The notes beneath the pieces were generated by a model that was not told where the DNA came from, searched no databases, and saw only the letters and a program-made list of their open reading frames with translations. Made by a program: the position numbers and the translations under genes. Below are positions 21,827-39,932 of a DNA stretch of 53,157 bases, one piece after another. The DNA comes from Bacteroidales bacterium (GTDB taxonomy: Bacteria; Bacteroidota; Bacteroidia; Bacteroidales; Muribaculaceae): the NCBI GenBank assembly GCA_030524805.1, contig JAUNFY010000013.1:1-53157 (forward strand), given 5' to 3'. Position 1 is the stretch's first letter. Every line of letters begins with the position of its first letter.

Positions 21827-23152
21827 TCAGAGCAGTATCAGCTTCCTCTTGGTGCCCTTTATCTTCGCTGAGGCGAGCTGCCTCACGAGCGCCGCAGCCT
21901 TAGCCGCAGGCACGGCCACGAGCGCGTGGTGGTCGCTCAGCGTGATGTTGCCTATCTCGTCGGCCGCCAGGCCTCCCTCCTTGCAGAGGAAACCCACAAT
22001 GTCGCCTTTCGAAAGCTTCTCCTTGCGCCCCGCGCTGATGCGTATCGTGGCCTTGTCGCTCATGAGCCGTGACGAGGCCTGCTCATACACCTTATACACC
22101 CCGTCGGTGCTCACAAAAGGCTTCAGTTCCTCGTCGGGGCCCGTCAGCATATATATGTCGCCCGTGGCGTCTACGCGCGCCGTGCGGCCGTTGCGGTGCG
22201 TGTTGGTCTCCTCCGTCAGCGGCTGGTGATAATGGATGATGTTGCTCACTCCCCTGATGTCGAGGCCGCGCGCGGCAAGGTCGGTGGCTACGAGTATAGG
22301 TGCCGACCCGTTGTTGAACATCGTGATGGCATCCTCGCGCTGATACTGGTCGAGCTCGCCGTGATAGAGCGCGCAAGCCACATGGTGCTTCTTCAGGAAA
22401 TCGGCCACCCTCACGGCGCTCTCGCGGTAGTTGACAAAGACGATGCTCTTCTGCGGAATGTCGCCCTCCGTTATGGAGCGCAGCAGCTGCAGCAGCGACT
22501 CCAGTTTGTCTTTCTCGGTGAAGACGCGGTAGATTCTCATCCTCTCGCGCACGTTGCCCGAGTTTTCCGAGAAGTCGAGTTCGGTAGGGGAGGAGAGTTT
22601 CAGGAAAGCCGGCAGGGTGTCGCACCGAGTGGCCGACGTCAGTATGAATCGGCTCGCGTTTTTGAGCCGGTTGAATATCTTCCTCATGTCGTCTTCAAAA
22701 CCGAGCTCAAGCGACTTGTCGTATTCGTCGAGTATCAGTATGCGGGTCGACGACGGGTCGACGTTTCCGCGCTTCAGATGGTCGAGAAGGCGTCCCGGAG
22801 TGGCGATGATGATGTCGGGCGTCACGCTCAGCGTGTTCACCTCGTCTTCCACGTTGTGGCCGCCGTAGAGCGCCGAAACCTTGTAGCCCGATGCGAGATC
22901 GCGCACCACTCCGGCTATCTGGATCACGAGTTCGCGCGAAGGAGCGATGATGATGGCCTGCACGCGTCCTGCGGCCGGATTCAGCCATTTCAGCATGGGA
23001 AGGGTAAACGCCACTGTCTTGCCGCTGCCTGTGGGCGACACGAGTATTATTTCTTTCGATTCGGATGCGGCGGCCATCGAGCGCCGCTGCATCTCGTTTA
23101 TTTCACTTATGCCGAGTTTCTGAAGGTTCGGCAGGAATTCTTTTTCTCTCAT
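21827..23152 (-). CDS. DbpA-like DEAD-box RNA helicase
   Basis: This 441-residue helicase has all superfamily-2 motifs: I SPTGSGKT (about residue 40), Ia PSRELVIQI, Ib TPGRLLDH, II LILDEYDKS (about 143), III SAT, V ATDLAARGLD and VI HRNGRTAR. The C-terminal 70 residues match the DbpA RNA-binding domain (SAGRKEKLSKGDIVGFL, DEIGNITLSDHHALVAV, KIKGTKRKLILL), which in E. coli docks on 23S rRNA hairpin 92 during 50S assembly. Motif II reads DEYD, not DEAD; the catalytic D and E are kept. Role in ribosome assembly is inferred from the C-terminal domain. Confidence 0.9.
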   Translation of the reverse strand: MREKEFLPNLQKLGISEINEMQRRSMAAASESKEIILVSPTGSGKTVAFTLPMLKWLNPAAGRVQAIIIAPSRELVIQIAGVVRDLASGYKVSALYGGHNVEDEVNTLSVTPDIIIATPGRLLDHLKRGNVDPSSTRILILDEYDKSLELGFEDDMRKIFNRLKNASRFILTSATRCDTLPAFLKLSSPTELDFSENSGNVRERMRIYRVFTEKDKLESLLQLLRSITEGDIPQKSIVFVNYRESAVRVADFLKKHHVACALYHGELDQYQREDAITMFNNGSAPILVATDLAARGLDIRGVSNIIHYHQPLTEETNTHRNGRTARVDATGDIYMLTGPDEELKPFVSTDGVYKVYEQASSRLMSDKATIRISAGRKEKLSKGDIVGFLCKEGGLAADEIGNITLSDHHALVAVPAAKAAALVRQLASAKIKGTKRKLILL

Positions 23153-23227
23153 AGTATGAGTCTATGTATATTTCTATCGCTAAAATATGCAGCCGCATCC
23201 CTTTCATGAGGGGCGGCCGCACTTGCA

Positions 23228-23278
23228 GTTAAAACGCTTTTGTGGTTAAAATGCCCTTGTAGTTAAAACGCTTTTAAA
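23228..23278. repeat. Three 17-bp tandem repeats
   Basis: GTTAAAACGCTTTTGTG (23228), GTTAAAATGCCCTTGTA (23245) and GTTAAAACGCTTTTAAA (23262) follow each other without gaps. They lie between the tRNA terminator and the helicase start, upstream of the helicase on its strand. Confidence 0.75.
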
Positions 23279-23280
23279 GC

Positions 23281-23311
23281 AAAAAGGCTGACCTTTTGTG
23301 AAGGTCAGCCT
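23281..23311 (-). terminator. Terminator of the tRNA-Met gene
   Basis: On the minus strand AGGCTGACCTT, loop CACAA, AAGGTCAGCCT is followed by TTTT. It is a perfect 11-bp stem beginning 3 bases after the tRNA CCA end. Confidence 0.9.
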
Positions 23312-23313
23312 CA

Positions 23314-23388
<75 letters not shown>

Positions 23389-24273: not shown

Positions 24274-24304
24274 AAAAAAAGCAGCACCGACCATCGCCGG
24301 TGCC
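24274..24304 (-). terminator. Terminator of the fimbrial operon
   Basis: On the minus strand GCACCG, loop GCGATGGT, CGGTGC is followed by TGC and seven T. It lies about 50 bases after the stop of the last fimbrial gene and marks the end of the eight-gene unit. Confidence 0.8.
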
Positions 24305-24355
24305 ACCTTTCTATCTATGCGGGCGCTATTCTCGCCGCTCCATCTTCAGCCTTCA

Positions 24356-27300
24356 TCAATGCTTGTTGATCCACGTCTGATAAGCATTCTGTTCGTTAGT
24401 GTTCAGAATCATTATGCATCTTACGGTGTATGCGTTACCTCTACTTGTCGAAGGATTATAATTATAATCCCTGCTATTTTCGTTTGCTTGATAATATCCT
24501 CTTGCATCAAGTGATTTATAATAAGCACTGTTGTTATTTACATAATCGCTTGTCCAATACCAGCCATAATTTTCTCTGTTGGTGTTGACAGTTGCTGCCG
24601 CGCAGGGTAAGTAGCATCCCATGTATTTGCCGTTGTGCTTCAATACCGACACTATGTATGGTCGTTGCTTCGACCATTGCAGATTATACCATATTTGATT
24701 GAATTCTCCATTGTTTGGCACTTTCCATCTATTCTGGTACTTTGTCGTGTAGAAAGGAGAAGTCAATTCGCCGGGGTCCTGATTGAACCGGAAATAATTG
24801 TCTTTTACCCAAGTTGTGAACTGGTTGCTGTTGGTGTTTCCGTTTTCTCGCCAGATGTCATTATAGGTGAAGTAGCCTCCTGAGAAGAGTTTGTTGTCGA
24901 AATCGGAAGTGCTTGTCGTGTTGGTGGCATGCAGGTCCTGAAAGCCGGAATAATTCAGCGCTCTGTTGTAGGTTGTCCCGTTCAGTCTCGGTACAGCTCC
25001 CACATTTCTGTCGGCAACCAATATCGGGTTGTTTCCGTTAGCGAGCACAACGTCCGATATCTCGCAGTTGGTTGTGATTCTCACGTCAAAACTGATGGTC
25101 TGGCTCTCGCCCTTCTCTATTCCGTCCTTATGATAGGCTGTGACTCTGATTGTGCCTACGATATCGGGGTCGCCGGGACCGGTGCGGAACACGTTCATAT
25201 AGAATTTCTGACCATTCTGCATCTTGTCGAGTATCTGGTAATGTGGATTCCTGAGATACGTCTGGGTTATTCCGTTAGTCGTGGCCATTGTTACTTTAGG
25301 CGACCAGTAAGTATAGTTGGCATCGTCTGCCGCACTTGCCGGGATGTGTGAACTTTTCTGAGTTCGTAATATAGCAGAGTTCGGGCTGAGCGAGAGATCG
25401 CGGCACGCGTCGAAGTCGGTCTCCACTTTATATAGATAGTTCACCGGATCGGCGAGATTGACAAATATGTCTTTCTGCACGGAGAATGTGTTGCTTCGTT
25501 CTTCGTTTGTATTCATTGTAGACGATTTCCTGATTTCATTCAAGAATCCCTCAATCTCCATCACTCCGTTCTGAGGATACGGATATATCGACAGAAGCAC
25601 CTTGCTCTTGGGCTGCTTGAGTTTTATATATACCGGTGCCACTTCTTCTTCGGTTACTCCGTTTCGGGTCACCTTGAGGGTAATCTCACGGTCAGCACCG
25701 CTGATATTTGCCGGTATCACAATCTCCAGGAAGCCCTTGTTGCCGCCTGCTTTCGTGTAGGAAGCACCTTTCGAGCCCCAGTTGGAGGAGAAATCATTCT
25801 CAGCGTCTTTGCCATCGGCGTTGACAGGTTTCACTGTCCATCCCTGGGTTGTGGAACCGGTCTGTACCTGATAGAGGAACGTGGTTCCTGTGCCCGATAC
25901 GCGTGGAGTCAATGTGCCGGTCTGGCCGTTGACAGTAAGCATTTTCACATCATCGTTGACCGACAACTGTTGTACGTTGACAGCGACTGAAAGTGTCTTA
26001 CCATCTTTGGTGAGGCCTGTCACCTTGAAATAGCCGTATTTCACGAAATTGGTGTTGTTGCGGGTAAGCGTTTGGAATGTGATGCTGCCGCTTGCCTCGG
26101 TCTCATCCTTCTCTATGGTGTGAGAGAAGTCTCCGTTGGCGTTTCCTGTGCTGTTCACTTCCTCAAGTTTCCATGTCATGCCTTCACGCACCTTGACAGT
26201 GATTTTCTGTTTCAGTCCCTGGTCGCCGTCGAAAGTGACGCTGGTCTTCGAGAGGATTATGAAGTTGCCGGATGCGTCGGCGTCGCTGTTGGTGTCGCTG
26301 TCTTCCCATGTTTCCTCCACGGTGGCTACCAGCACCGGTGCGTTGGTGAGGCGTGCGGCCGACTCCGTCGGGGCGCCGGGACCTTTTACTCCCATGATAT
26401 TGGCGGTGTAGACATGGTTCTTTTCAAGCAGCTGCGCCTCCTTGCCCTGGTTGAGGTTGAAGCGGTAGTAGTTCAGTTCATCGCTTCCTTTATAATAGGC
26501 GGCGATCATCAGATATGTTGTCACGGCGTCGTCCTGTGTCGGTTTGGCTATGCTGTTGGGCAACGTATAGAGCGAGGCCCGGATTTTCTGGCTGTATACG
26601 CCCGAGACGGATTGCTCCGCCGGGTCAACTGCCAGATAATAGGGAGCCTGATCTTCCGGCGACTCGTCGGAGATGCCGGGCTGCACGGTGCCCTTGGTGT
26701 AGTCGTCGAGCCAGAGGAATGTGTTGTTACGGTAGTTGCACACCTTCACCCACTTTATGTCGAGGTCTTCCGTAGCGTAGTTGTTGAGGTCGATGCGCGC
26801 CACCTGACGGCGGAAGAGGATCGATCCGTCGGAAACGTAACGTCCTTCCACCACCTTGAACCAGAACTTCATGTCGTTGCCCTGGCCGTCGCGCAGGGTG
26901 CCCACCATCGGGAGATACTGGTCGGTGTTCTTGTTCATCGTGTGGTCAAGCCCTATGGCAAGCGCCGTCTCCACCTGCCGCTGTGTCTTCCCCTTGGTGT
27001 TGGCGTTCAGAAACGCCTGGAAAGTGGCGTAACCTGTAGGGGGATAGTTGTCCATGTTGCCAAGTATTATCACGTCATATTCGATGGGGGAGTCATCGTT
27101 GACAGTAGGCTGAAGCACCGATGGCACCGGAAACGTGATCTTCGTGGCGCCTGCCTGCACGTCGGTGCGCTGATAGGTCAAGAACTTGCCGTCCTTGAAA
27201 AAGATAAAATAAGCGTGGTTCAACTGTTTCTCATGCGCTTCGGCAGGGTAGGCCGGGTGTCCGTCGGCATCCGTCTCGGGAGTGGACTCGCCGCCTGATT

Positions 27301-27550
27301 CGGTGCCGTCGCCTGATCCGTCGGCGTCAGATCCGGTGCCGTCGCCCTCGGCGCGGGTGCCGTTCATGCGTCCCATCTGCATGTTGTCGACAGAAAAATT
27401 GATGGCCATCTCGTCAGAATCCACCTCCAATGATGGCGTATTAAACCCCGGATCGGGTTCGTCGATTGCGCTGCACGCGGCAAGCGCCGCCATCAGCACC
27501 GTCGAAGCCGCCGCTGCAAGCATGCCGGCATATCGTCTGAAGTTTTTCAT
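24356..27550 (-). CDS. Large fimbrial tip-like lipoprotein with C-lectin-type end (1064 aa)
   Basis: The lipoprotein signal ends at LAAC-S (Cys 26). A candidate maturation site NGTR-A (Arg 66) is followed by an acidic linker rich in Gly, Ser, Asp and Glu. Residues about 105-410 resemble fimbrillin domains (FFRRQVARIDLNN, YYRFNLNQG, LEKNHVYTANI). Residues about 430-670 look like BACON-type Ig modules. A region shared with the 1030-aa protein follows (GPGDPDIVGTIRV, LVADRNVGAVPRLN). The last 150 residues resemble the FISUMP / C-type-lectin-like module (RWKVPNNGEF, GCYLP, YWTSD, NAYTVRCIM). This suggests a ligand-binding fimbrial tip, by inference. It is the last gene of the operon, 22 bases after the 541-aa gene. 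Its 3' end is markedly AT-rich. Confidence 0.75.
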   Translation of the reverse strand: MKNFRRYAGMLAAAASTVLMAALAACSAIDEPDPGFNTPSLEVDSDEMAINFSVDNMQMGRMNGTRAEGDGTGSDADGSGDGTESGGESTPETDADGHPAYPAEAHEKQLNHAYFIFFKDGKFLTYQRTDVQAGATKITFPVPSVLQPTVNDDSPIEYDVIILGNMDNYPPTGYATFQAFLNANTKGKTQRQVETALAIGLDHTMNKNTDQYLPMVGTLRDGQGNDMKFWFKVVEGRYVSDGSILFRRQVARIDLNNYATEDLDIKWVKVCNYRNNTFLWLDDYTKGTVQPGISDESPEDQAPYYLAVDPAEQSVSGVYSQKIRASLYTLPNSIAKPTQDDAVTTYLMIAAYYKGSDELNYYRFNLNQGKEAQLLEKNHVYTANIMGVKGPGAPTESAARLTNAPVLVATVEETWEDSDTNSDADASGNFIILSKTSVTFDGDQGLKQKITVKVREGMTWKLEEVNSTGNANGDFSHTIEKDETEASGSITFQTLTRNNTNFVKYGYFKVTGLTKDGKTLSVAVNVQQLSVNDDVKMLTVNGQTGTLTPRVSGTGTTFLYQVQTGSTTQGWTVKPVNADGKDAENDFSSNWGSKGASYTKAGGNKGFLEIVIPANISGADREITLKVTRNGVTEEEVAPVYIKLKQPKSKVLLSIYPYPQNGVMEIEGFLNEIRKSSTMNTNEERSNTFSVQKDIFVNLADPVNYLYKVETDFDACRDLSLSPNSAILRTQKSSHIPASAADDANYTYWSPKVTMATTNGITQTYLRNPHYQILDKMQNGQKFYMNVFRTGPGDPDIVGTIRVTAYHKDGIEKGESQTISFDVRITTNCEISDVVLANGNNPILVADRNVGAVPRLNGTTYNRALNYSGFQDLHATNTTSTSDFDNKLFSGGYFTYNDIWRENGNTNSNQFTTWVKDNYFRFNQDPGELTSPFYTTKYQNRWKVPNNGEFNQIWYNLQWSKQRPYIVSVLKHNGKYMGCYLPCAAATVNTNRENYGWYWTSDYVNNNSAYYKSLDARGYYQANENSRDYNYNPSTSRGNAYTVRCIMILNTNEQNAYQTWINKH

Positions 27551-27572
27551 CTTTTATGTGGTTTTATTGTTG

Positions 27573-29198
27573 TTATTCCTGTTTCTTATATTCATCCTTC
27601 ACTCCGTCAAGGTCCACCTCGATAGGGTCTGACGGATCCCACTCATTGTCGTCGAGCGGATGTATCATCACCGGGATGTTGATGCGCAGTCCGGCAGATA
27701 TCCTCACGGCGAGATTTCCCACACGGGGTTCCGCTCCGGGCGGGTTTTCTTTGGTCACCTCCACTATGACTTTTCCTTTGTCGCCGTTGACCTTCACGGT
27801 GGCCTCCAAGCCGTTGACGCTCTCGGTCAGGTCTGTGTGGTAGCTTTGGTCTTCGTTTTCGGTCCAACGCACCCGGAGGGTGGTGAGCGGGAGGCTCGAC
27901 TCCACGTCTATCACGGCTCCCGCGCCCTCGCGGCCTGCCAGATGCAGTAGCTCCTTCGAGGCAGATATCCAGTCGTCGCCGAGATAGGTGATGGCATGGT
28001 GAGGCAGATCCCATTCTATCAGGGAGCTGCCGAGCCGCGCCACAGGGTCGCTGTAGGCGGCAGCCACGCTTTCAGCCCCCTCGCGGTCGGCCTGTGCGAT
28101 GCGGAAGGTGTAGAGATGGTTGCGGCGCACATTTATCAGTTCTCCCGTTTCGTCGTCGATGAAGTCGATGCGGTAGTATTGCAGCGAGTCGCTACCCTCG
28201 TAGTGGGCGCCGACCACTATGGCGGTCCGTTTCGTATGGCAGTCGCCCGGATAGATGCTGTCCATCGCCACGTCGCTCTCCGGCATGTAGAGGGTGTAGG
28301 AAATATTGTTGTCTTTCGCTACTGAATCGTGGTCCCAGCGGATGCTGTAGGCCACGCCGTCGGGTAGCGACGGGGCAGTGGCATGAAAGTGTCCGTCGAG
28401 GTTCTCCACCGGGCTGAGGTTCTGCTTGTCGGGCATGAGCGCGCAGGCGTTGGCACCGTTTACGAGATGGATGCTCTCGATGCGGAGTTTCTCGGGCGAG
28501 ATGTTGTCGTCATCCACTGTTATGTCTACCCTCGCCACCGACCTGAGCAAGGATGTGGCGTATGTCTTGCCGGGTTCCTCAACTTCCGAAGGGAACCTGA
28601 CCCCGTCGATCTCTCCCCACATCGGGAGGGGCACGGAGTCGTTTTTGGGCAGTTCGGGGAGGAATGGAGCCTTGGTGGAATTGAATTTCCTGACGAGTGT
28701 TTTCCTCGTCTGCTCCATCGTCATGCCGGGCCTTACGAGCGCGGCCTCATCGCGGCAGTTTGCGAGCACCACGGCGTTGTATGTGTCGAGGGCCTCGCCG
28801 GTGAGCAGTGGGTAGTAGGAAACCTTGAATGAGTAGACCGACGTATTCATCTCGTCGCGTTGCAGTTTCCTGCCGTCGAGCACAGCCTCCACTCGGTCTG
28901 AGTTGCCGTCGGCATCACGGTTGAAAAGCACTACGGTAGCCTCGGATATTCTCGACTCCCTGTCAGGGTCGAACGGTAGCCGCGTTTCTTCGGCGCGGGT
29001 GTCGGCATTATGTCTGGAATAAGATGGCACGCGCACGAAGAAACTTACCTCCGGTGTCAGTTCCTTGTTGGTGTCCGGTAGTTCTTCGGGCGGTAGGATA
29101 TACTCTGACGCACATGATGCGAGCACAATCAGACAGCCCACCATTGCTATGGTGCGCAGTCTGACTGTGTATTCGTATATGGCGCTGATGCGTGTCAT
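27573..29198 (-). CDS. Fimbrillin-like minor subunit lipoprotein (541 aa)
   Basis: The lipoprotein signal ends at VLASC-A (Cys 29), and the candidate protease site ADTR-A is at Arg 68. The body has FimA/Mfa-type features: RISEATVVLFNRDADG, LLRSVARVDITVDD, LQYYRIDFID, and RRNHLYTFRI at the usual place before the C-terminal domain. A second domain begins near GDDWISASKELLHLAG and is also present in the 809-aa protein. The start codon overlaps the stop of the 1030-aa gene by four bases (ATGA). I read it as an adaptor-type subunit paired with the downstream 1064-aa tip protein; this is inference from order and domain content. Confidence 0.75.
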   Translation of the reverse strand: MTRISAIYEYTVRLRTIAMVGCLIVLASCASEYILPPEELPDTNKELTPEVSFFVRVPSYSRHNADTRAEETRLPFDPDRESRISEATVVLFNRDADGNSDRVEAVLDGRKLQRDEMNTSVYSFKVSYYPLLTGEALDTYNAVVLANCRDEAALVRPGMTMEQTRKTLVRKFNSTKAPFLPELPKNDSVPLPMWGEIDGVRFPSEVEEPGKTYATSLLRSVARVDITVDDDNISPEKLRIESIHLVNGANACALMPDKQNLSPVENLDGHFHATAPSLPDGVAYSIRWDHDSVAKDNNISYTLYMPESDVAMDSIYPGDCHTKRTAIVVGAHYEGSDSLQYYRIDFIDDETGELINVRRNHLYTFRIAQADREGAESVAAAYSDPVARLGSSLIEWDLPHHAITYLGDDWISASKELLHLAGREGAGAVIDVESSLPLTTLRVRWTENEDQSYHTDLTESVNGLEATVKVNGDKGKVIVEVTKENPPGAEPRVGNLAVRISAGLRINIPVMIHPLDDNEWDPSDPIEVDLDGVKDEYKKQE

Positions 29199-32100
29199 TG
29201 TCCTAAAAATTTCGATTTATATTTTGTCAATTCAGCAGGAGAAACAGTTCTTACCGGGCGGAATAAATATTCGTATGTCTTATAGCTGTATGTATTGGTG
29301 AATGACATGTCTGAATTAATGTTGATATGATATGCATAATTTGCATTATATCTTGAAGATGTGCGGTATATTGCAGATCCGTCCGAGTCGAATGGAATGA
29401 AACATCCTATATAGTTTGGTGTTGAGCCGCTTTTGTCCTGAAGCGATGAGATTATATAGGCCCTGTATTTTGACCATCTGATATAAGGGGCAATGTAACT
29501 TGTCCATTCTGAATGCGATGGCATCCTCCAACCTTGTTCTCCGCTTTTGTAGAAGATTGAATACAATTCATCCTGATCTATGTTTTTTTCAGTAAATTCG
29601 CGGTACATGACATCCGGTCTGGTTACTTCGCTGGATGAAAAGAATAATGAATTGTTCCAATTATCATCATTAGACGAACTGTAAGCATATTGCTCACCCC
29701 GGAAGTCACTGTTCCTGTTGTCGGTATTTGTGATGTCGCCATAGCCGGTTATGTGCAAATAGGGATGTGCGGTGTAGTTGAGTGCCGGCACGAATCCCTT
29801 GCTGTCGTTGAGGCGGGGCTTGGCTCCGCAATTACGGTCGGCTACAAGAAGATAATTGTTGCCATACGGAATTATCGCGTCTTCAATTTTGCATGAAGTG
29901 GTGATAGTCACGTGGAATGTGATTTCCTGCACTTCATTTTCTGCATTCTTGGGCACTGCGCGGACCACGATCTCACCCTGGATGTCCGGATCGCCGGGGC
30001 CTGTGGCGAATACGTTGATGAAGAACTTCTGTCCGTTGGTCAACCCTTGCAATTTGGCGTGCGCTCCCGTTTCCGTGTCCTGACGTTGATATACGGGTAA
30101 TCCACCTACATTATAGTGCGAACATTTTGTGGTGACCGGCAATTTTGCATTGGCTGTCAGTCGAAGGTCGCGGTAGAAGTCGAAAGAAGATGTCACCTCA
30201 AAAGTGTAATTGTCCGGGTCGGCAAGAGAAACGAAAATCTCTTCCTGTGCCGAGATTGCATTCGAGAGATCGCGGCTGTCGTCAGTTCTGTTGGGAGTGA
30301 AGCCCTCGATATAGAGAGTTCCGTTTTCAGGATAGGGGAAGACGGATATGAGATATTCGCTCTTGGGCTGGGATATGACCACATATATCGGTTTGATAGG
30401 TTCTCCTGTATAGCCTGCCGGCATCTCACGTTCCACTTTCAGGGCCATTTCCCTGTTCTCTTTTGAGATGTTGGCTTTCAGATTCACTATGAGATGACCC
30501 ATGTGGCTGCCGCCCGAGGTATATGTTCCGATCTGTGTGGAGCTTGTGTTGAATTTGTTGGTAAGGGCATCGCGGACCGTAGGCTTGACGTCTTCGAACT
30601 CATATTCATATCCGAGGGAGTTTCCTTCGCTGTCTTTCTTCTCGGTTTTGTTCTTGATATTAACCTCAGTACATTTCCAACCCTCTACGGAAGAGCCTGT
30701 CTCGATCTGAAGGTTGAGGTTACCGCCTACACCGGCTACAGTCGTGATGTATGTTTCGCTGCTGTTCTCCACGAGCAGATATTTCGGATCTTCCTCATTT
30801 GGCACCTGCTGCACGATGAAGGGGGCGATGAGCTTGTTGCCTTGCTTCGTGGTGGCCACGATGTTGATATATCCTTTGCGGAGGGTGTAAGTGGTGTTGT
30901 CTTCGAGTGTCTTGACATAGAATGAGGTTCCGTCGCTCATTGTCTTCATCTCGAATTTATCGTTGCTGTGTCCGGTTTGCTCCACAATCTGGAGGTCCCA
31001 GGTGGTGCCATCGTTGACTTTGACCTGAATAACCTCTGTCTGGTCCTTGGTGCCTTCAAGGGTGACGGTGGTGCGCGAGAGAATGAGGAAGTTACCCTCG
31101 GAGTCGGTAGTCACAGAGGAGTCGTCGCCCCAGTCCTCCACAACCTCGGCGGTCAAAACCGGTTTTTCCCTTCTCATGGCCTCGGCCTCCGTGGCGTCGC
31201 CGCGTCCGGTTATGTTTTTGGCTATTGCGGTGTAGATATGGTTGCGGAGCATCGACAGCGGCTGACCTGCCGAAGCAAGGTTGAAGCGGTAGTAGGTTAG
31301 GCCGGTGTCCTTGCCATAGCGGCCGGCGATGAGAAGTGCGGTGGTGACTTCATCGTTGGGCGAGGTGGCCGACACGATGTCGGGGAAGGCATAGAGTGAC
31401 TCCTTGAGCTGCTGCTGGTTGGAGGTAAGTTCGTTGCTGACTCTCACCCAGCCGTTCACGCCATCCACCGGGCCTGTCACGTCTTCGCCGTCGAGCGCTT
31501 CCACCACTTCGCCGCAGTTCTTGCCGTCCTGATAGGCCAGGCCTCCGCTGCGGATGTTGACCAGCTTCACGTAGTCAACCATGATTTTGTCGGGTATGAT
31601 GTTGGTGAAGTCGATACGCGACACCGCACGTTTGAAATAGAACTCACCGTTTACTGCGTATGAGTCGCCGTCGATGGTGTAGTTGAAGGGTATTTCGGAG
31701 TGGGCGTTGTTGATGAGCTCGCCAAACATCGGCAGCAGGGGAGTGCTCTTGGCGCACATGGGCTGCGGATTGTAGAACTCAAGTGCGTTTTTCACTTCCG
31801 AGTAGGTATGGTTGGGGCATATAGTCTCGATATATGCCAGATAGGAGTCGTATTGAGAGCCGCTGTTGGGGTCGACGGGGATGAAGTTGTCGCCGTTGCC
31901 TACGGCTATCACCTTGTAGTCGGTGTCCTGATGCACGGTGCTCGGGATTGAGAACGAGAAGGTGCGTCTGATTCCGTCGGGGTTCTCGCTCGTGATTACC
32001 TGAGCCTGGACGGCCGTGACATACGATTCGTCGAGCGACGAGAAAAACAGTATATGCACATGATTGAGGGTGGTCTCATGCCGGGCTGCGACCACTGCGC

Positions 32101-32287
32101 TGCGCGTCTGATAGTTCATGCCGTCGACAGAATAACTCATTTTGAGGAGTCCTGAGCTGTCCTGGTCTCCATGTTTGAATTGTTCGAATTGATCTTCAAT
32201 GTCGGCGCATGAGGTGGCGCAAAACGCCAGCAATAGCGATGCGAGGCACTGAAGCATCCGGGTGATGATTCTGCATCGATTGTTCAT
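29195..32287 (-). CDS. Large fimbrial tip-like lipoprotein with C-lectin-type end (1030 aa)
   Basis: The lipoprotein signal ends at CATSC-A (Cys 27), and the candidate maturation site YQTR-S is at Arg 62. The protein is a full-length paralogue of the 1064-aa protein. Residues up to about 400 are fimbrillin-like (FKRAVSRIDFTNI, YYRFNLASAGQ, LRNHIYTAIAKN), followed by two Ig/BACON-like modules (FLILSRTTVTLEG). The shared block has GPGDPDIQGEIVV and LVADRNCGAKPRLN. The end is FISUMP-like (GWRMPSHSEWTSYI, GCFIPF, YLFRPVRTV). The C-terminal 170 residues diverge strongly from the paralogue and are encoded by AT-rich DNA. It is translationally coupled to the 541-aa gene. A surface adhesin role is inferred. 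Confidence 0.75.
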   Translation of the reverse strand: MNNRCRIITRMLQCLASLLLAFCATSCADIEDQFEQFKHGDQDSSGLLKMSYSVDGMNYQTRSAVVAARHETTLNHVHILFFSSLDESYVTAVQAQVITSENPDGIRRTFSFSIPSTVHQDTDYKVIAVGNGDNFIPVDPNSGSQYDSYLAYIETICPNHTYSEVKNALEFYNPQPMCAKSTPLLPMFGELINNAHSEIPFNYTIDGDSYAVNGEFYFKRAVSRIDFTNIIPDKIMVDYVKLVNIRSGGLAYQDGKNCGEVVEALDGEDVTGPVDGVNGWVRVSNELTSNQQQLKESLYAFPDIVSATSPNDEVTTALLIAGRYGKDTGLTYYRFNLASAGQPLSMLRNHIYTAIAKNITGRGDATEAEAMRREKPVLTAEVVEDWGDDSSVTTDSEGNFLILSRTTVTLEGTKDQTEVIQVKVNDGTTWDLQIVEQTGHSNDKFEMKTMSDGTSFYVKTLEDNTTYTLRKGYINIVATTKQGNKLIAPFIVQQVPNEEDPKYLLVENSSETYITTVAGVGGNLNLQIETGSSVEGWKCTEVNIKNKTEKKDSEGNSLGYEYEFEDVKPTVRDALTNKFNTSSTQIGTYTSGGSHMGHLIVNLKANISKENREMALKVEREMPAGYTGEPIKPIYVVISQPKSEYLISVFPYPENGTLYIEGFTPNRTDDSRDLSNAISAQEEIFVSLADPDNYTFEVTSSFDFYRDLRLTANAKLPVTTKCSHYNVGGLPVYQRQDTETGAHAKLQGLTNGQKFFINVFATGPGDPDIQGEIVVRAVPKNAENEVQEITFHVTITTSCKIEDAIIPYGNNYLLVADRNCGAKPRLNDSKGFVPALNYTAHPYLHITGYGDITNTDNRNSDFRGEQYAYSSSNDDNWNNSLFFSSSEVTRPDVMYREFTEKNIDQDELYSIFYKSGEQGWRMPSHSEWTSYIAPYIRWSKYRAYIISSLQDKSGSTPNYIGCFIPFDSDGSAIYRTSSRYNANYAYHININSDMSFTNTYSYKTYEYLFRPVRTVSPAELTKYKSKFLGQ

Positions 32288-32357: not shown

Positions 32358-34787
32358 TCATTCGTCGGGTTCGGGCTCGCCGAGGTGGTCGGTGTTGAAC
32401 TCTCCGCCGTCGTTCCAGTTGCCGTCGTGGTCGAGTTCGTCTGGTTTGATGGCGGGTTCGTCGGGTTTGTCGGGGTTTTCCGGTTCTTCATCGTCTTCGC
32501 CGAGGTTCTTGTCGATGCTTCCGGGGTTTTTCCACGAGTCGTCGCCCGTATCCTTGTCGTCGGGCATGACGTCGGGATAATCCGGATTGGTAGGATTGTC
32601 GGGATCCGAGCCGAGCCAGCGCTGGTAGACCGTGCCGACATACCATTTCATGAAGTCGACGATGGTCTCTATCTTTCCGATCACCACCGAGATGTCGCCA
32701 CTGTCGGGATTATGGCCGGAGTTGTCGAGGATGCTGTCGAAGTCGGTCGACTGCAGCCATTGTAGAAACTCATATACTGTCTTTGCTCCGAGAGTGGTGA
32801 AGTCGGGGTTGTCCGGGTCGTAGGGACCTGTGCCGGGGCCGGTGATCTCTTTGTAGAAATCGGGGCCGAGCATCCAGCTCATGAAGTCGAATATGATAAG
32901 GCCTACGGGATTGGTCCATGCCTCGTCCCAGTCTTCCGGTGTGCCGCCGATGACGTGACCGTATTCGTCGGTGAAAAACCAGCTGATGAACTTCCAGAAA
33001 TAGTAGTCGAGATATTCCGAGGGGGAGTGGTTGTCGCCTTCGCCCACCGAGCCGGAGTATTCGCCGCCGAAGAGCCAGCGGATGAAGTCGATGAAGCTTC
33101 CGGGCGGTATATTGGGGTCGGCGCCCCCTATCGGGAAGGTGATGACAGTTTCCCAAGGGCCGGAATTGCCGATGAACATGTCGCTGAAAAACCAGTAGTC
33201 GTCTTCAAGCGGCCACTGCGTGATGGTGATGTGGAAGAGCACCCTGCCGCCGATGCGCACGTAGAGCCGTTCGCTGACCGGTTCCTTGCCGGCGCCCAGT
33301 TCATGTTTCGTCACCACGAGGATCCGGGCCCCTTTCTCGAGGATGGGGCGGGTAACGAAGAAGTTGTCGCTCTCCATCAGCTGCGCCTTGGTGAATTCCC
33401 CTTCTTCGCCGAGACGGAACTCCCACTGGTCGATGGGCACTGAGGAGTTGATGATGAACGTGTTGCCCACGCCGGCGCTGCCGGTGAGGTTGATGTTGCG
33501 CCTCGACACCGACACCCAGTCCGACCCCTGATACATCACGTCGTTTTCCACCAGACACCAGTCGGTGATTTCCGCCACTATCTTGATGTTGTTGTTGTCG
33601 TAAGCCTCGTCGGGGGTAGGCTCGCCGGGGCCGAGCACCGACTTTATGGTGATGGTGTATTGATGGTTGCGCAGTATGTCGATGAGGTTGCCGTCGGCGT
33701 TGCAGATGTCGATGCGGTAGTAGCTCATCTCGGAGCCTCCGTTGTAGTATCCGCCCACCACGAGGGCAGGGCGCTGCGCGTGGTTGACGTCGCGCAGATG
33801 TCCGGGGCCTCCGTTGATGCCCTTCATCAGCACATCGCCCTCCGGCACGTAGCAACTGTATTCAAACACTCCGTCATTGACGCTCTCCGGGTAGTCCCAG
33901 CGGTAGAACCTGTCGTTGTCGGCGGCAAGCGAGGGGGAGATGGCGTAGTAGTAGGGATGTCCGGTCTCGTCGTGGGTGCCTGATATCTTGGCTGTTTCGG
34001 GCAATTGCATGATGGAGGTCGACGGGCGGTAGAAATATACCGACCGGAAGTCGAACAGCCCGCTCTTGCGGAGGTCTTCGTGCAGGTCGATGTCGAAGCG
34101 CGCGAGTGAGCGCATGAGGCATGACTCTACCGAGAATTGTGCCCCGTTGGCGGTCTTTATCACCATGTTGGGCATACCCCACATCACAAACGGCGCTTCC
34201 GTGTCTTCGGGCGTCAGCGGCGTGTGTATTTCGGCCGGATCGCTGCCGTCGGTCGCCAGACGAGTCGTCATCAGCTCGCGTATTTTGCTGTAGGTCAGTG
34301 TGGCGCCTGATGCGGCTGCCTGCTCCACTTCGGCGAGCATGGCGTCGGCGTTGGCCATGATGCAGATTTTGAGTTCCTTGTTCTTGATGGCTTGAGTCAC
34401 TTTCGTGACGAATCCTGCGTAGTAGAGTGTCGGGTCGGCCTCGTCGGGTCGCAGGTAATAGCTGTGAAGTGTCTCCACGTAGCGGTCGGGGCGTCCGTTG
34501 CCGTCGGCGGTGAAGAGCATCACCGACACCTCGTTTATCCTGTTCTCGCGGTCATCATCGAGCACGACGCCTCTGGTGGGCATCTCCCGGCGGTTGGCGG
34601 GAGTGTGTATCTGCATGTCGATGGCTATTCTGCCGTCGCCCGCGGGCTGTTGCTCAGCCTCGTCGCAGTTGTCGTAGTAGTCGTAGATAAGGCTGTCGCA
34701 CGACGCCGTGGCCGACACCGCAGCCAGAAGCAGCAGTGTCCGCATCACCCGTAACAAATCCTTTATGTGCGTAGCCTTTGTCATCAT
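32358..34787 (-). CDS. Fimbrillin-like lipoprotein with C-terminal Trp-repeat extension (809 aa)
   Basis: The lipoprotein signal ends at TASC-D (Cys 30), and the candidate protease site MPTR-G is at Arg 72. Residues about 75-430 are fimbrillin-like (RINEVSVMLFTADG, MRSLARFDIDLHE, MSYYRIDICN, LRNHQYTITIKSV). Residues about 435-550 match the second domain of the 541-aa protein (GSDWVSVSRRNINLTG). Beyond that common part, residues 564-726 hold five spaced copies of a motif like [FY]-[DEK]-F-[ILM]-x-W-[LFMY]. A tail rich in Asp, Pro and Glu follows (727-809). I do not recognise this extension. The gene lies 18 bases downstream of the anchor gene and 70 bases before the 1030-aa gene. Confidence 0.75.
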   Translation of the reverse strand: MMTKATHIKDLLRVMRTLLLLAAVSATASCDSLIYDYYDNCDEAEQQPAGDGRIAIDMQIHTPANRREMPTRGVVLDDDRENRINEVSVMLFTADGNGRPDRYVETLHSYYLRPDEADPTLYYAGFVTKVTQAIKNKELKICIMANADAMLAEVEQAAASGATLTYSKIRELMTTRLATDGSDPAEIHTPLTPEDTEAPFVMWGMPNMVIKTANGAQFSVESCLMRSLARFDIDLHEDLRKSGLFDFRSVYFYRPSTSIMQLPETAKISGTHDETGHPYYYAISPSLAADNDRFYRWDYPESVNDGVFEYSCYVPEGDVLMKGINGGPGHLRDVNHAQRPALVVGGYYNGGSEMSYYRIDICNADGNLIDILRNHQYTITIKSVLGPGEPTPDEAYDNNNIKIVAEITDWCLVENDVMYQGSDWVSVSRRNINLTGSAGVGNTFIINSSVPIDQWEFRLGEEGEFTKAQLMESDNFFVTRPILEKGARILVVTKHELGAGKEPVSERLYVRIGGRVLFHITITQWPLEDDYWFFSDMFIGNSGPWETVITFPIGGADPNIPPGSFIDFIRWLFGGEYSGSVGEGDNHSPSEYLDYYFWKFISWFFTDEYGHVIGGTPEDWDEAWTNPVGLIIFDFMSWMLGPDFYKEITGPGTGPYDPDNPDFTTLGAKTVYEFLQWLQSTDFDSILDNSGHNPDSGDISVVIGKIETIVDFMKWYVGTVYQRWLGSDPDNPTNPDYPDVMPDDKDTGDDSWKNPGSIDKNLGEDDEEPENPDKPDEPAIKPDELDHDGNWNDGGEFNTDHLGEPEPDE

Positions 34788-34805: not shown

Positions 34806-35858
34806 TCATTCCACCCAGATGTCTTCCGTCACCACCTTCCAGGAATTGATGTAGATAAAGGCGTTCATCCATTCGTTGCTCTCGGTGAGGAAGAAAGTCA
34901 TGTTATATTCATCCTGCCGGTCGAGATATTCCTGATCGGTCATGTCGTGTTTGTATTTTCCTTTCACCATCAGCGCGTAGTCGATGAGCGGGATCCGGAA
35001 TACAGCTTTGCGCGAGTCGCCGCTGTTGTGCCACGCCGTGAGAATCGGCTTGTGGTCGGTCATGAGTCGGCCGAGGGTCATGTCGGCAACGACTGCCGAT
35101 ATCATGCTTTTTTCCGCTTCTTCGTCGCCGCTGCGCAGGATTTCGGCAGATCCTCCGCTCACCGACCAGGGATGGAAGGTGAGGGGTTCGTCGTCGAGCA
35201 CGGTGTTGTCCCAGTCCATCAGTCCGTTGTTGTCTTCTACCGTGAAACTATATTCATCAGGGTTGATTTCCTTTCCGGAGAGCGACTGGAGCACTACCTT
35301 GAGCCTGTTGGTGTTTTTGACAAGGGGCATCTTCAGGCGCACTTTCTGCCCCTCGCCTTCGGGGAGAGTGGCGGTAATCTGGCCGTGGAAGAGGGCGTTC
35401 AGGCCGCCGTCGGTCTTTATCTCGCTGCCGGTGCCGTCGGGGTTGGGGGTCCGTGTCATTCGGCATTGTAGATGCTCGCGGCGGCTTGTGGAGTGGTCGA
35501 TTTCGGGTATTGAAAAAGACACTCCGTCGTCGTGCGCCCCTTCTCCGCACCAGGCCACCATCTGGTAGTCGCCGGCCGGGATGTCGAGGCGCATGGTGTA
35601 GCCTTCCTGCCTGAGGATATCGCCGCGTTCTGTGGCGCTCATCACGTGCGCGCCGGTGGCGGCGTCGAATACGTGAAGAGTGACCGCCTCCACTTCCGAC
35701 GGGAAAGCATCGGCCCACTTCAGGTTGTGGTCGTAGACAAACTGCAGTTCGTAGACCGTCTCGCAGTCGCCTTCCTCATCGTAGATCCACGATTCGCACG
35801 AGGTGAAGAGCACTGCGAGCATTATGGCCCAGAGATATGTCGCTTTAAGGTTTCTCAT
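34806..35858 (-). CDS. FimB/Mfa2 family fimbrial anchor subunit
   Basis: This 350-residue lipoprotein (LFTSC-E, Cys 21) has the hallmark N-terminal block of the FimB/Mfa2 family: CETVYELQFVYDHNLKWADAF, then EVEAVTLHVFDAATG and GDYQMVAWCG. The C-terminal domain ends in WMNAFIYINSWKVV. In Porphyromonas gingivalis, Mfa2 stays lipid-linked in the outer membrane and anchors the fimbrial shaft while limiting its length. It lacks the TR-A maturation site seen in its neighbours, as expected for an anchor. It directly follows the major subunit gene after a gap that contains a hairpin. Confidence 0.9.
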   Translation of the reverse strand: MRNLKATYLWAIMLAVLFTSCESWIYDEEGDCETVYELQFVYDHNLKWADAFPSEVEAVTLHVFDAATGAHVMSATERGDILRQEGYTMRLDIPAGDYQMVAWCGEGAHDDGVSFSIPEIDHSTSRREHLQCRMTRTPNPDGTGSEIKTDGGLNALFHGQITATLPEGEGQKVRLKMPLVKNTNRLKVVLQSLSGKEINPDEYSFTVEDNNGLMDWDNTVLDDEPLTFHPWSVSGGSAEILRSGDEEAEKSMISAVVADMTLGRLMTDHKPILTAWHNSGDSRKAVFRIPLIDYALMVKGKYKHDMTDQEYLDRQDEYNMTFFLTESNEWMNAFIYINSWKVVTEDIWVE

Positions 35859-35985: not shown

Positions 35986-37746
35986 TTACTTCAAGTCAAC
36001 GTCCTGATGCACGGTCTTCCATTTCAGCGGATGGATCTCAGCCTCGAGTTCCACGATTTCGTCGGGTTTGGCGGGGATGATGATCTGGTCCGGGTCGTAG
36101 ATGGGTGAGCCAAGACCCTTGATGGTCTTCAATGTCACCTCGTAGGCGTGGTTGCGCACGAGGCCTTTCTTGCGCGACACGTTGCCCGACTCGTCGTTGT
36201 AGAGAAGGTCGTGGAGGATAGGTTCGGAATAGAAGCACATGCCTTCCTTGTAGCAGAGCACCGGGTCGAACTTCTTGAGGGCCTCCACGGCTGCGTTGAG
36301 GTCGTCTTCGTTGATCTTGTCGGGGTTGTTGCCGTAGTTGAGGAAAGGCACTACGCCGAGGGTGCTTCCGTCGGGATTCTCGTCGCGGCGCAGGTCGATC
36401 ATGGGTGCCCAGTCGTTCGACTCCACTGTGCTGCCGTCATTGCCAGGTTTGTGGAATGTCAGCCCTAACTTGATGAGCTCGTTGGCCACGGTCTTGCGGT
36501 AAGCATCCATGGTGATGAAGAATTTGCGGGTGCCGGTCACGTCGATGAGGTCTTGCATCGGCTCGCCTTTCTCGTCGCAGAGTATGGCCTTGACTATTAC
36601 AGCAGTGTAGAGGTCGGATGTGTTTTCCTGCGGATAATACATCCATTCCTTCTCATTGTTGACATTGTTTTCCATCTGGTCGAATGTCTTGTAGTAGTAG
36701 TCGCTCTTGTCGTCGAGGAACTTGCCGTCGCTGCCGGTTGCGTTCCATGCCACGAGAGCCGGTGCCGTTGCCCAGTAGCTGCGCGGATAGAGTTTCGATT
36801 TCCAGTCCATCACGTCGTAGCTCTCATTACCTTCGAGGCTCTTGACGAGATATGATTTCTTGGTGCGCTGGGTGATTTCGACCGCGAGCACCTTGGGATA
36901 GATCTTCACGATCTCGCCGTCGAACGAAACCTCCGTCGGCTTCACTCTTTCGGGCTGGTCAAGCTCGCTGACGAGGTGTATGCGGCTGTTGATGCGCTCC
37001 ACGTCGATATGCACCGTCTCATGCTCGACCTCGTTGCCTTCGGCGTCGTAGTATTTGCCTGTGGTCTCGTCTCTCTTCTCGTCGGCTGTGATGAAAGCCT
37101 TTTCCGGAATCTCAGTCACGTTGACCAGGCTTTCGGTGCCGTCAGCCGCAAACTTGATGTAGCTTGAGTTCGACATCATGAGGGGCTCCTTCGGAGTCTT
37201 TCCGCTTGCGTCAAGTTCTACCTCAAATGCGCCTACCGAATTCAGCATGGTAGTCATGGTCGGCTTGTTTTGTGTCAGCGACAGTTCGTTGATTGTGTTG
37301 CCGTTCTGGTCGTAGGGTTTGTCAACGCCGTTGATGACGCAGAGCACGTATTTGGGGCGTACTCCCTCCTTGATGGTGAGTTTTACCTGCGCCTCGAGGA
37401 GATTTTCCTGTGTATGCTCCGGGGTAAAGTCTTTGTTGGACGTAAACTCAGGTGTTGCGGCTGAGAAGAAGTCGCCGTTTGCCTTGAAGAATACGAGAGT
37501 GACGTTCTTGATGTCCGACTCGTTGCCTTTGCCGATTTCAAAATTGTCGAGATCTTCGTTGGTTTCGTCGGCTCTTGTCTGCACGTCTGTTGCGTTGCGG
37601 ATCACGAAACTTACCACGTTCTGTCCGTCTGCAACCGGTTGGCTGAGGTCATTGCCCTTGTTGAGGTCCATGTCGCTGCTGCACGATGCAGCCGACACTA
37701 GAAACATAGCGGCAATTCCGATTCTGGATAATTGCTTGAAATTCAT
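35986..37746 (-). CDS. Mfa1-like major fimbrial subunit
   Basis: This 586-residue lipoprotein precursor (SAASC-S, Cys 22) carries the candidate maturation site VQTR-A at Arg 58. In P. gingivalis, trypsin-like gingipains cut at the equivalent place to expose the assembly groove. Mfa1 features include IKNVTLVFFKANGDF, the central long variable region, RSYWATAPALV, the KKGLVRNHAYEVTLKTIKG block (about residue 530), and the C-terminal donor-strand-like end HPLKWKTVHQDVDLK. It is the longest candidate for the shaft subunit and is placed just before the anchor gene, as in mfa1-mfa2. The start follows the OmpA-type gene by 43 bases. Confidence 0.9.
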   Translation of the reverse strand: MNFKQLSRIGIAAMFLVSAASCSSDMDLNKGNDLSQPVADGQNVVSFVIRNATDVQTRADETNEDLDNFEIGKGNESDIKNVTLVFFKANGDFFSAATPEFTSNKDFTPEHTQENLLEAQVKLTIKEGVRPKYVLCVINGVDKPYDQNGNTINELSLTQNKPTMTTMLNSVGAFEVELDASGKTPKEPLMMSNSSYIKFAADGTESLVNVTEIPEKAFITADEKRDETTGKYYDAEGNEVEHETVHIDVERINSRIHLVSELDQPERVKPTEVSFDGEIVKIYPKVLAVEITQRTKKSYLVKSLEGNESYDVMDWKSKLYPRSYWATAPALVAWNATGSDGKFLDDKSDYYYKTFDQMENNVNNEKEWMYYPQENTSDLYTAVIVKAILCDEKGEPMQDLIDVTGTRKFFITMDAYRKTVANELIKLGLTFHKPGNDGSTVESNDWAPMIDLRRDENPDGSTLGVVPFLNYGNNPDKINEDDLNAAVEALKKFDPVLCYKEGMCFYSEPILHDLLYNDESGNVSRKKGLVRNHAYEVTLKTIKGLGSPIYDPDQIIIPAKPDEIVELEAEIHPLKWKTVHQDVDLK

Positions 37747-37789: not shown

Positions 37790-39193
37790 TTAGTCGTTCT
37801 GTTTAGAATCCTGCAATTCCTTCAGCTTGCCCTTGGCCCATTCCACATGGTTGCCGTCGCCGGCTTTTACCAGTCGGGCAGCGGCGGCATCGGCATCGCC
37901 ATGCTGCAGCGCGGCCACCGCCATGTTGTAGTTGGCAATCGCGTTGTCGGGATAATATTGCAATATAAGTGCGTTGATGGCGATGAATTCCGGACTTCCC
38001 GGTTCATGGCTCGAAGCTGCGATGAAGAATTCCTCGGCCGAGAGTCTGCCCGCGTCTTTGCTCATCACGGCCTCGATCACGTTTGCCGTCTCATAGTCTT
38101 TTATGGTGTAGTCTATGCGGTAGTCGCTGCGGCGCAGGAGCGGGTAGATGTTGCTGAGCAGATAGTCGTAGCTGTCGCGGTATTTCGCGCGTATCTCCGC
38201 TTCCTTGCTGTCAGGTTCGCGGTCTGAGTCGATGATGGCCAGGATTTCGTCGCGGTGGCTCAGCTGAAGCGTGTCGAGAGCCTGTTTTAGGCCTTCCCAG
38301 TTTTCGGCTTCCGACGATGTGATGAAGAGTTGAGCGGGAAGCCGGTAGGTGTCTTTCACGTAGTTGCTGAGCGCCTGGGTGCGTCCTTCGGCCAGGGTGG
38401 CGTTGGCAGAGTATTTTCCTTCCGGCGAGGCGTAGCCTTTGATGCTGATGGAGTTGACCTCGATGTCGGGGTCGCCGATTATTGTATCGATCGTAGCCCG
38501 TATTTTAGCAATCTCGTATGCGTTGTTGTGATAGTCGGGCCTTATATCGGTCTTGTTCACCGGGAAGTCGATGTAGGCGCTGCCTGAGAGGTTGCGTGTC
38601 TTGGTGTTTTTCTTCCTGTTGATAAGTTGCGATACTTCCGGAAGTTTCCACACTGGGGTTCCGAGTTCGAATTTCTTTTTGGCCCTGAGTGTCGCTACCG
38701 GTCCGAGTGTGGCCGTGTCGGAAAGCTGTGAGCAGCACCCGAAGCTCGACACTATCAGCATGAGTTCGCTTCCGTCCATTTCCGGTGTGTAAGGTGCGAC
38801 CGCTGTGTAGGCCACAGGCTTCAGCAGTTGCCTGTCGCCCGATTTGAACAGGAGTTCGGGATCGATAGGTTCCTGTCTTCCGACACGTTGGAGCTGGATA
38901 TAGCGCGAAGAACCGTATATGCCGATAGGGACGAGTAGTAAGGTGTCGTTGTCGTTTACGAGGGCCGGCGTAATGTCGATGGCGCGGTTGCGTCTCACCT
39001 CCAGTCCGCTCAGGTCGAGTGTCATGTCGACAGCCACAAATTTTCCGTTGCGCTGCACTGCGGCGCTGTCGGCGTGTATGCTTCCGATCGCTTCGGAGGC
39101 ATATCTGATGCCGGCTGAGCCAGACGTGGGAGCGATGGCGGACAGGAGCATCATTGCAGCCAATGATGATATGTTTCGTCTTGTTGTTGCCAT
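37790..39193 (-). CDS. DUF3868 / OmpA-domain outer-membrane protein
   Basis: This 467-residue protein has an N-terminal signal peptide without a clear lipobox, then a DUF3868 domain (about residues 25-200: GKFVAVDMTLDLSGLEVRRN, RAIDITPALVNDNDTLLLVPIGI). An OmpA-like peptidoglycan-binding domain follows (about 205-330: SISIKGYASPEGKYSANATLAEGRTQAL split by loops). The C-terminus is TPR-like (YPDNAIANYNMAVAALQHGD). DUF3868 and DUF3575 proteins commonly head Bacteroidales fimbrial operons. A role in anchoring or assembly at the outer membrane is inferred. It lies 64 bases after the DUF3575 gene. Confidence 0.88.
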   Translation of the reverse strand: MATTRRNISSLAAMMLLSAIAPTSGSAGIRYASEAIGSIHADSAAVQRNGKFVAVDMTLDLSGLEVRRNRAIDITPALVNDNDTLLLVPIGIYGSSRYIQLQRVGRQEPIDPELLFKSGDRQLLKPVAYTAVAPYTPEMDGSELMLIVSSFGCCSQLSDTATLGPVATLRAKKKFELGTPVWKLPEVSQLINRKKNTKTRNLSGSAYIDFPVNKTDIRPDYHNNAYEIAKIRATIDTIIGDPDIEVNSISIKGYASPEGKYSANATLAEGRTQALSNYVKDTYRLPAQLFITSSEAENWEGLKQALDTLQLSHRDEILAIIDSDREPDSKEAEIRAKYRDSYDYLLSNIYPLLRRSDYRIDYTIKDYETANVIEAVMSKDAGRLSAEEFFIAASSHEPGSPEFIAINALILQYYPDNAIANYNMAVAALQHGDADAAAARLVKAGDGNHVEWAKGKLKELQDSKQND

Positions 39194-39257: not shown

Positions 39258-39848
39258 TCAGAAAATATATTCAAGGTTTATTGCAAGTTCGGTAGGCCCG
39301 AAGTAATGGCGCGTCACGTCCTTGTCGGTCATCTTGCCGCAGCCAGCGCATTTATACACGTCGTAGACTGTGAATAGATACCCGACTCCGATTTCCGCTT
39401 CAAGGTTCCAGTGCTTGGAGAGCATCCAGGCATAGCCGTAGTTGATGCCTCCGCCGGCAACCCAACCTTGCCTGCGGGTGTCGCGAAGTGTGTTGAAGTC
39501 GATGCCGAAGAGTTTGCCGTCAAACCCGAAGCCGCCGATGTTGTACTTGCCTCCGAGCAGGTGCATGCCGACGAAGTGGCCGTGAAGTGCCTCGCAAAAC
39601 CAGTAGCGCACTTCAGGCTCGATAAACCAATGTTTCCATTTCCGCTCGGATGGCATGTCCCAGGCGTTAAGGCTGCCTGTCACTTCCAAACTCCATCTCG
39701 GCGCGACGCTTATCTCTGCTCCGATACCTGGACTCGCTGTTGCGTCGGATATCAGATTTGTCTTGATGCCGATCTGCTGGCTCCTACACTCTGATATTGT
39801 TAAAGTCGTTAGGATAGTGACAAAAATCAGTTTCTGGATTAGTCTCAT
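39258..39848 (-). CDS. DUF3575 family outer-membrane protein
   Basis: I choose ATG 39848 (MRLIQKLIFVTILT), giving 196 residues with a clean signal peptide. A longer frame from 39887 would begin inside the promoter. The mature protein has repeated aromatic beta-strands typical of a small outer-membrane barrel (IGIKTNLISDATASPGIGAE, EPEVRYWF, HFVGMHLLGGKYNIGG, GINYGYAW, NLEAEIGVGYLF) and ends with Phe (NLEYIF). It is recognised as DUF3575. Four Cys/Gly residues in YKCAGCGKM form a small loop of unknown use. It is the first gene of the fimbrial operon. Confidence 0.87.
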   Translation of the reverse strand: MRLIQKLIFVTILTTLTISECRSQQIGIKTNLISDATASPGIGAEISVAPRWSLEVTGSLNAWDMPSERKWKHWFIEPEVRYWFCEALHGHFVGMHLLGGKYNIGGFGFDGKLFGIDFNTLRDTRRQGWVAGGGINYGYAWMLSKHWNLEAEIGVGYLFTVYDVYKCAGCGKMTDKDVTRHYFGPTELAINLEYIF

Positions 39849-39884
39849 TTCCTCTAATCTGACGTTGTTGAGTTTTATACGACG

Positions 39885-39892
39885 CAAAATTA
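39885..39892 (-). promoter_or_regulatory. -7 box of the fimbrial operon promoter
   Basis: The minus strand reads TAATTTTG, 36 bases upstream of the chosen DUF3575 start. No TTTG is seen at the ideal -33 distance, so the promoter may need an activator. Confidence 0.6.
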
Positions 39893-39932
39893 GAAAAATT
39901 CTTTTAATATTTATTAACTAAAAACCAAATTA

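Follow-up and report, generated by a model that had tools for sequence, protein, structure and literature searches.

Among the closest described counterparts of the proteins reported here are the tip pilins of the type V pili of Bacteroidota (FimD-like, Mfa-family), with which they share operon content and order, an N-terminus that looks lipoprotein-like by eye, a fimbrillin-like body and a C-terminal extension. We analysed 53,157 nucleotides (nt) from the genome of a Bacteroidales bacterium of the Muribaculaceae (positions 1 to 53,157 of contig JAUNFY010000013.1, C83 in our numbering, assembly GCA_030524805.1); this whole stretch is called the window, and the draft genome that holds it comprises 2.91 Mb in 128 contigs and is 95.47% complete. 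Unlike the described systems, the operon in the window has two tips, named tip A and tip B. We consider it likely that these are two tip pilins of a type V pilus, that they carry divergent FISUMP/Lcl_C lectin-like binding heads, and that they stem from duplication of a partner gene together with a tip gene, with no retroelement involved; the tip position, the fold, the binding of ligands and the difference between these ligands are what we infer from the evidence below.

Several families with lectin-like domains can be compared with the ends of the two tips. FISUMP domains (PF09603 / TIGR02145) share with them W-x-x-P, Y-x-T-S and, in tip B, the final V-R-C strand, whereas the canonical middle part SGF.ALPGG.R is replaced in the tips by SK.R...GC[FY].P. 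The Lcl_C domain (PF07603, DUF1566), which forms the C-terminus of the Legionella collagen-like protein (Lcl), is described as C-type-lectin-like (PMC11162425); the collagen-like stalk of Lcl is absent from the tips, and all matches to Lcl given below are under cut-off or not significant. The tip of a Bdellovibrio fibre, Bd2740 (8oks), is reported to have a C-type lectin fold (PMC10769870) and likewise places a lectin-like head on an adhesive fibre, in its case a trimeric one. The same proposed fold class and terminal position recur in the variable proteins of diversity-generating retroelements (DGRs), such as Mtd, TvpA and Bacteroides tip pilins (PMC4159848, PMC12632263). According to a review, tip pilins of Bacteroides are diversified by DGRs (PMC12632263), and Fib_succ_major has been listed as a domain of putative variable proteins of DGRs, of which one also has an Mfa2 domain (PMC4159848). 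Our locus differs from these in that neither a reverse transcriptase nor a template repeat was found in its genome.

Tip A and tip B belong to a single fimbrial cluster of eight genes on the minus strand of the window (39887 down to 24356), in the order DUF3575, OmpA-like/DUF3868, Mfa1/FimA-like stalk, Mfa2 anchor, FimD-like 809-residue protein, tip A, 541-residue partner and tip B (Table 1). Stalk (Mfa1/FimA) and anchor (Mfa2/FimB) genes thus lie in the same operon as both tips, and the stop codon of tip A overlaps the ATG of the 541-residue gene (ATGA). An earlier note on this DNA, made from its letters, had proposed two paralogous open reading frames (ORFs) here as fimbrial tip candidates; both ORFs and their paralogy were recovered (six-frame search, E 6.7e-121, 36% identity), and operon content and homology to tips elsewhere support the candidacy. 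Their N-termini are lipoprotein-like when read by eye (LLAFCATSC in tip A, LMAALAAC in tip B). A fimbrillin-type body is recognizable through relatives: the tip B orthologue L015, from a second species of the genus (genome G184), matched P_gingi_FimA (28.7 bits, cut-off 21.4), and profile A1 matched the 541- and 809-residue neighbours. The tips themselves had no fimbrillin match in the Pfam search and none to NF052322 (FimD), a model that reached the 809-residue protein, L014, L018 and L044 under its cut-off. Among PHROGs, tip B had no match and tip A a single one (E 0.32). Searching solved structures by sequence, with each tip or one of the profiles A1, A4, A5 and A7 as query, yielded nothing usable (best BlaR1, E 0.021, with A1), and no relative appeared in viral contigs (A1, A4), phage records (tip B end) or plasmid records (tip A).

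The ends of the two proteins share most of the features that the earlier note had listed. Four of its five motifs occur in both: W[RK][MV]P (WRMP at 920 in tip A, WKVP at 942 in tip B) and GC[FY][IL]P (GCFIP at 961, GCYLP at 978) once per protein, and DPDI.G.I and LVADRN.GA.PRLN likewise as single occurrences in each. The fifth, [FY]-x-[PV]-R-[CT], is found in tip B only (YTVRC at 1041); its aligned counterpart in tip A is YLFRP (1007), so the note had taken another register there. The last 170 residues are indeed rich in tryptophan and tyrosine, at 13.5% in tip A and 15.9% in tip B against 5.2% and 5.4% elsewhere. The ends also differ more than the block before them, with identity between the tips of 57% over tip A residues 751-834, 21% over 967-1005 and 16% over 1006-1030, but set against the whole protein the difference is modest (22% in the last 195 columns against 29% overall), and an N-terminal stretch is lower still, at 19%.

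Profile comparison suggests that the ends are divergent FISUMP-type domains. We aligned tip profiles by hhalign with two FISUMP sets: set 1 holds 12 FISUMP-type domains, nine of them from 26 loci (L081-L106) and the others the ends of L047, L048 and L058, and set 2 holds 31 viral FISUMP domains. The nine loci kept had canonical, complete ends; in those dropped, the end was atypical or incomplete, or the frame was not recovered. The four-tip profile, built from tips A and B and the G184 orthologue of each, matched set 1 at 92.4% and set 2 at 92.7%; with L044, a tip found in a different family of the order, both values rose to 95.7%, and all 16 tips together reached 80.4% against set 1. Column shuffles (100 each) gave at most 3.2% (four tips) and 1.1% (four tips plus L044) against set 1, and at most 2.05% for the four-tip profile against set 2 (100 shuffles); reversed profiles gave 0.05% and 0.06%, respectively, against set 1. 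Of the other 230-column segments of the tips, nine gave 0.06-0.13%, and the last two, which reach the head domain, 7% and 94%. Homology at the profile level, in the right register, is thus found for the four tips and for the four with L044. Single sequences, against set 1 and set 2, gave 74.4% and 30.3% for tip A, 71.4% and 51.2% for tip B, and 88.6% and 93.1% for L044. Weak matches to Lcl_C, each below cut-off, were seen in tip A (E 0.014, residues 915-1013, extending to the very end of the profile) and, with the register unchanged, in L015 (E 0.0067). Taken together, the last ~210 residues of both tips look like divergent FISUMP/Lcl_C (C-type-lectin-like) domains, as the earlier note had suggested; its proposal stands at the level of profile-profile matches (92-96% for the close tips), but no curated FISUMP hidden Markov model matched either tip.

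Relatives place such ends in the same operon slot. In another family of the order, the tip profile found two proteins, L047 and L048, with PF09603 at their ends (45.2 and 41.5 bits, cut-off 33.9) and with TIGR02145, BACON and Fimbrillin_C all below cut-off. The gene of L047 (genome G382) is fifth in a run of DUF3575-like, OmpA-like, Mfa1-like, anchor and tip genes, and that of L044 (genome G309), whose end resembles canonical FISUMP (GCWFP...YWST...SVRCVRD), is fourth in a run of Mfa1-like, anchor, partner and tip genes; G184 has the two-tip layout of the window (ORFs read by eye in all three). From these PF09603 matches and operon runs it follows that a FISUMP-ended tip in this slot is found elsewhere in the order, and the tips of the window look like a diverged lineage of such tips. 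In the named genome collection a single relative appeared, L014 of Ca. Amulumruptor caecigallinarius, itself a Muribaculaceae.

The history of the two tips was followed through the genus and the order. Of 111 genomes of the genus, 19 matched the tip profile with E values up to 0.001 and 13 with E below 1e-40, counting the genome of the window; in the order, 23 of 393 genomes matched at E up to 0.001. Among the genus genomes, that of the window and G184 are the only ones with a pair of tips spanning the whole profile; in G233, two tips reach no further than about position 910. A tree of the bodies groups tip A with L033 and tip B with L015 (100/100 for both), and a tree of the ends agrees (97/97 and 96/94), with a long-branch warning for its other rows. 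Because each tip groups with its own counterpart across the two species, the duplication is older than the split from G184, and the two trees show no head swapping between A and B. Since the 809- and 541-residue partners are homologous as well (E 1.7e-50, 27% identity), the duplicated unit was probably the gene pair of partner and tip.

Comparison of orthologues, made with the one other species G184 and with gaps counted as differences in identity, shows that the heads diverge faster than the bodies. Identity over the last 195 columns was 46% for tip A and 38% for tip B, against 55% and 54% overall, and the lowest windows elsewhere lay near the N-terminus (48% and 42%). Non-synonymous divergence (dN) was 0.37-0.38 in the body of tip A and 0.27-0.31 in that of tip B; for the two parts of the end it was 0.45 and 0.64 (tip A) and 0.60 and 0.53 (tip B). 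Synonymous divergence (dS) was saturated throughout this comparison, and dN/dS was therefore dropped. The head is accordingly the faster-diverging part of each tip, a pattern that does not demonstrate positive or diversifying selection; the diversifying selection expected in the earlier note is unproven.

A number of results weigh against the FISUMP interpretation of the heads. PF09603 and TIGR02145 had no match in tip A or tip B at E up to 1 (Pfam, NCBIfam), so neither scores above a curated cut-off, and the window's own genome had no PF09603 match at E up to 0.001. One member of set 1, L058, is not a tip protein, and matched TIGR02145 below cut-off and PF09603 not at all. When distant tips were added and L044 left out (15 tips), the hhalign values fell to 13.0% (set 1) and 8.1% (set 2); eight tips of another subclade gave 0.12% and 0.08% on their own, and L015 alone gave 3.3% against set 1. 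From the single-tip and distant-tip results, the link to FISUMP rests on the closer tips and L044. A first AlphaFold2 model, from three alignment rows, was uninformative (predicted local distance difference test, pLDDT, 32). A second, from 34 rows (tip B, tip A, L014 and 31 of 57 viral FISUMP loci), reached a pLDDT of 49 and a predicted template modelling score of 0.49, with 36 residues at 70-90; the blocks of ten residues that exceed 70 fall on the W-x-x-P and Y-x-T-S parts, and the model is not independent of FISUMP because it was built with FISUMP rows. Foldseek searches of the PDB with this model gave no significant match among nine hits (best E 2.4). Ranks 1, 2 and 4 of this FISUMP-steered model were C-type-lectin-fold domains, two chains of Bd2740 and, second, Lcl (8q4e), at E 2.4, 3.2 and 4.8 with template modelling scores of at most 0.27, and the remaining six hits were unrelated; against BFVD, 23 hits were obtained with the same steered model, the top two named FISUMP (E 0.073 and 0.35). 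This ranking is consistent with a C-type lectin fold and does not prove it; the fold proposed for the heads draws on homology at the family level and on structures that have been published for relatives. The lack of a curated match, the weak alignments with distant tips and the want of a confident model would all suit type V tip pilins whose C-terminal domain is folded differently, perhaps as a beta-sandwich, with a FISUMP likeness that amounts to a few shared motifs. Register-consistent matches with two separate FISUMP sets under clean controls, the weak Lcl_C match and the linking position of L044 make this unlikely. The heads might instead serve in pilus assembly or oligomerization, as Lcl-type domains are reported also to form trimers (PMC11162425), or the proteins might be surface lipoproteins outside any pilus. 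Given the stalk and anchor genes of the operon and the faster evolution of the head in the orthologues, which would be expected of a binding surface more than of an assembly interface, we regard this as very improbable.

The earlier note had also likened the ends to DGR targets, and for this link we found no support, as searches for RVT_1 and for a template repeat both went without a match. Were the heads such targets, the reverse transcriptase and template would have to lie in the part of the genome absent from the draft. The fold class, the C-terminal position, the abundance of asparagine, tyrosine and serine (33% in the ends against 19%) and the DGRs reported on Bacteroides tip pilins would accord with that account. 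Yet RVT_1 had no match in the draft, with controls positive in three of 14 genomes, and neither 3' end (last 345 and 346 nt) had a second copy, even a partial one, in the genome, other matches being of 18-21 nt only. The best of these, 20 nt long and located in contig C77 (E 0.0055), was not accepted as a template repeat, since by eye it lies inside a glycoside-hydrolase-like ORF. DGR reverse transcriptases generally carry SQ at the position of the QGxxxSP motif. Reverse transcriptase matches occurred in nine of the 16 genomes with tips or tip relatives, 11 in all, and the four of these that were read have QGxxxSP rather than SQ. The negative result has a small gap where the draft lacks part of the genome, and we hold a DGR at these heads to be extremely improbable; the analogy is sound in kind, as far as likeness goes, and unsupported by anything in this genome.

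The arrangement favoured here, of two lectin-like tip pilins from a duplicated pair, would work as follows. The operon would build a FimA/Mfa1-like type V pilus, with tip A and tip B as its two tip pilins. Each tip would be secreted as a lipoprotein and cap a pilus with its N-terminal fimbrillin body, while the free C-terminus would present the FISUMP/Lcl_C head, with its C-type-lectin-like fold, to a ligand that is probably either a glycan or a surface protein. Differing heads may give one operon two binding specificities, and their diversity would have arisen by duplication and fast divergence, not by a retroelement. More tentatively, the locus may represent a two-headed lectin pilus without a retroelement, in which a duplicated pair was retained across species while FISUMP-derived heads diverged beyond current family models, so that a slowly changing, inherited head repertoire occupies the fold and position that DGRs diversify in other Bacteroidales. 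The two tips extend the catalogue of gut-bacterial adhesins by a divergent FISUMP/Lcl_C lineage missed by curated models, and form a natural paralogous pair of heads with which to ask what type V pilus tips bind. They also indicate that a lectin-like pilus tip is in itself no sign of a DGR. The overall design is already known, and the interest, mainly for specialists, lies in the retained pair of diverged heads with no detected retroelement.

Table 1. Positions of the fimbrial genes, heads and flanking hairpins in the window.
Feature	Coordinates	Strand	Evidence
DUF3575 protein, first cluster gene	39258..39887	-	228.1 bits, cut-off 21.1
OmpA-like / DUF3868 protein	37790..39193	-	matches under cut-off
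Mfa1/FimA-like stalk pilin	35986..37746	-	Fimbrillin_C 45.6 bits (cut-off 27); further match 110.4 (cut-off 130)
Mfa2-family anchor	34806..35858	-	191.4 bits, cut-off 21.2
FimD-like pilin, 809 aa, tip A partner	32358..34787	-	NF052322 52.2 bits (cut-off 170); Fimbrillin_C 26.8 (cut-off 27)
Tip A, 1030 aa, lipoprotein-like fimbrial tip candidate	29195..32287	-	ORF and homology to tip B
Tip A head, residues 808-1030, divergent FISUMP/Lcl_C-like	29198..29866	-	alignment, hhalign, Lcl_C E 0.014
Pilin-like tip B partner, 541 aa	27573..29198	-	Mfa1 family under cut-off; homologous to 809-aa protein
Tip B, 1064 aa, lipoprotein-like fimbrial tip candidate	24356..27550	-	ORF, homology; orthologue L015 fits P_gingi_FimA
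Tip B head, residues 838-1064, divergent FISUMP/Lcl_C-like	24359..25039	-	alignment, hhalign
Terminator-like hairpin, 17 pairs, after tip B	24275..24312	-	hairpin scan
Terminator-like hairpin, 13 pairs, before cluster	40004-39975	-	hairpin scan

Terminator-like sites as a class are not enriched in the region (19 against a shuffle mean of 18.0). Before the operon, an imperfect 17-nt inverted repeat (14/17; 39913-39929 and 40026-40042) lies in intergenic sequence with 96 nt between its arms; an invertible, phase-variable promoter at this place is too weak to claim, a repeat of this kind being reached by one of 40 dinucleotide shuffles. The tail of the 809-residue protein (residues 568-715) has five F-[ILM]-x-W motifs (at 568, 600, 635, 674 and 712; spacing 32-39 residues) and no match in the Pfam search, and its G184 counterpart (L112, 9055-11469) has a comparable series. 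Elsewhere, locus L111 (G211:C87, 6172-17803) holds six lipoprotein-like genes in the order F-M-F-F-M-F: the four F genes (633-641 residues) have PF09603 near their ends, two over and two under cut-off, and the two M genes (608 and 612 residues) a metzincin-like HExGHxxGxxH motif near the end and no Pfam match. In the window, about four head-to-tail units of 17 nt (23219-23286) lie between a tRNA-Met gene (23314-23388) and a helicase-like ORF (21827-23152), and a BspA-type leucine-rich repeat protein (LRR_5; 42466-43713, minus strand) is another surface-protein candidate near the operon.

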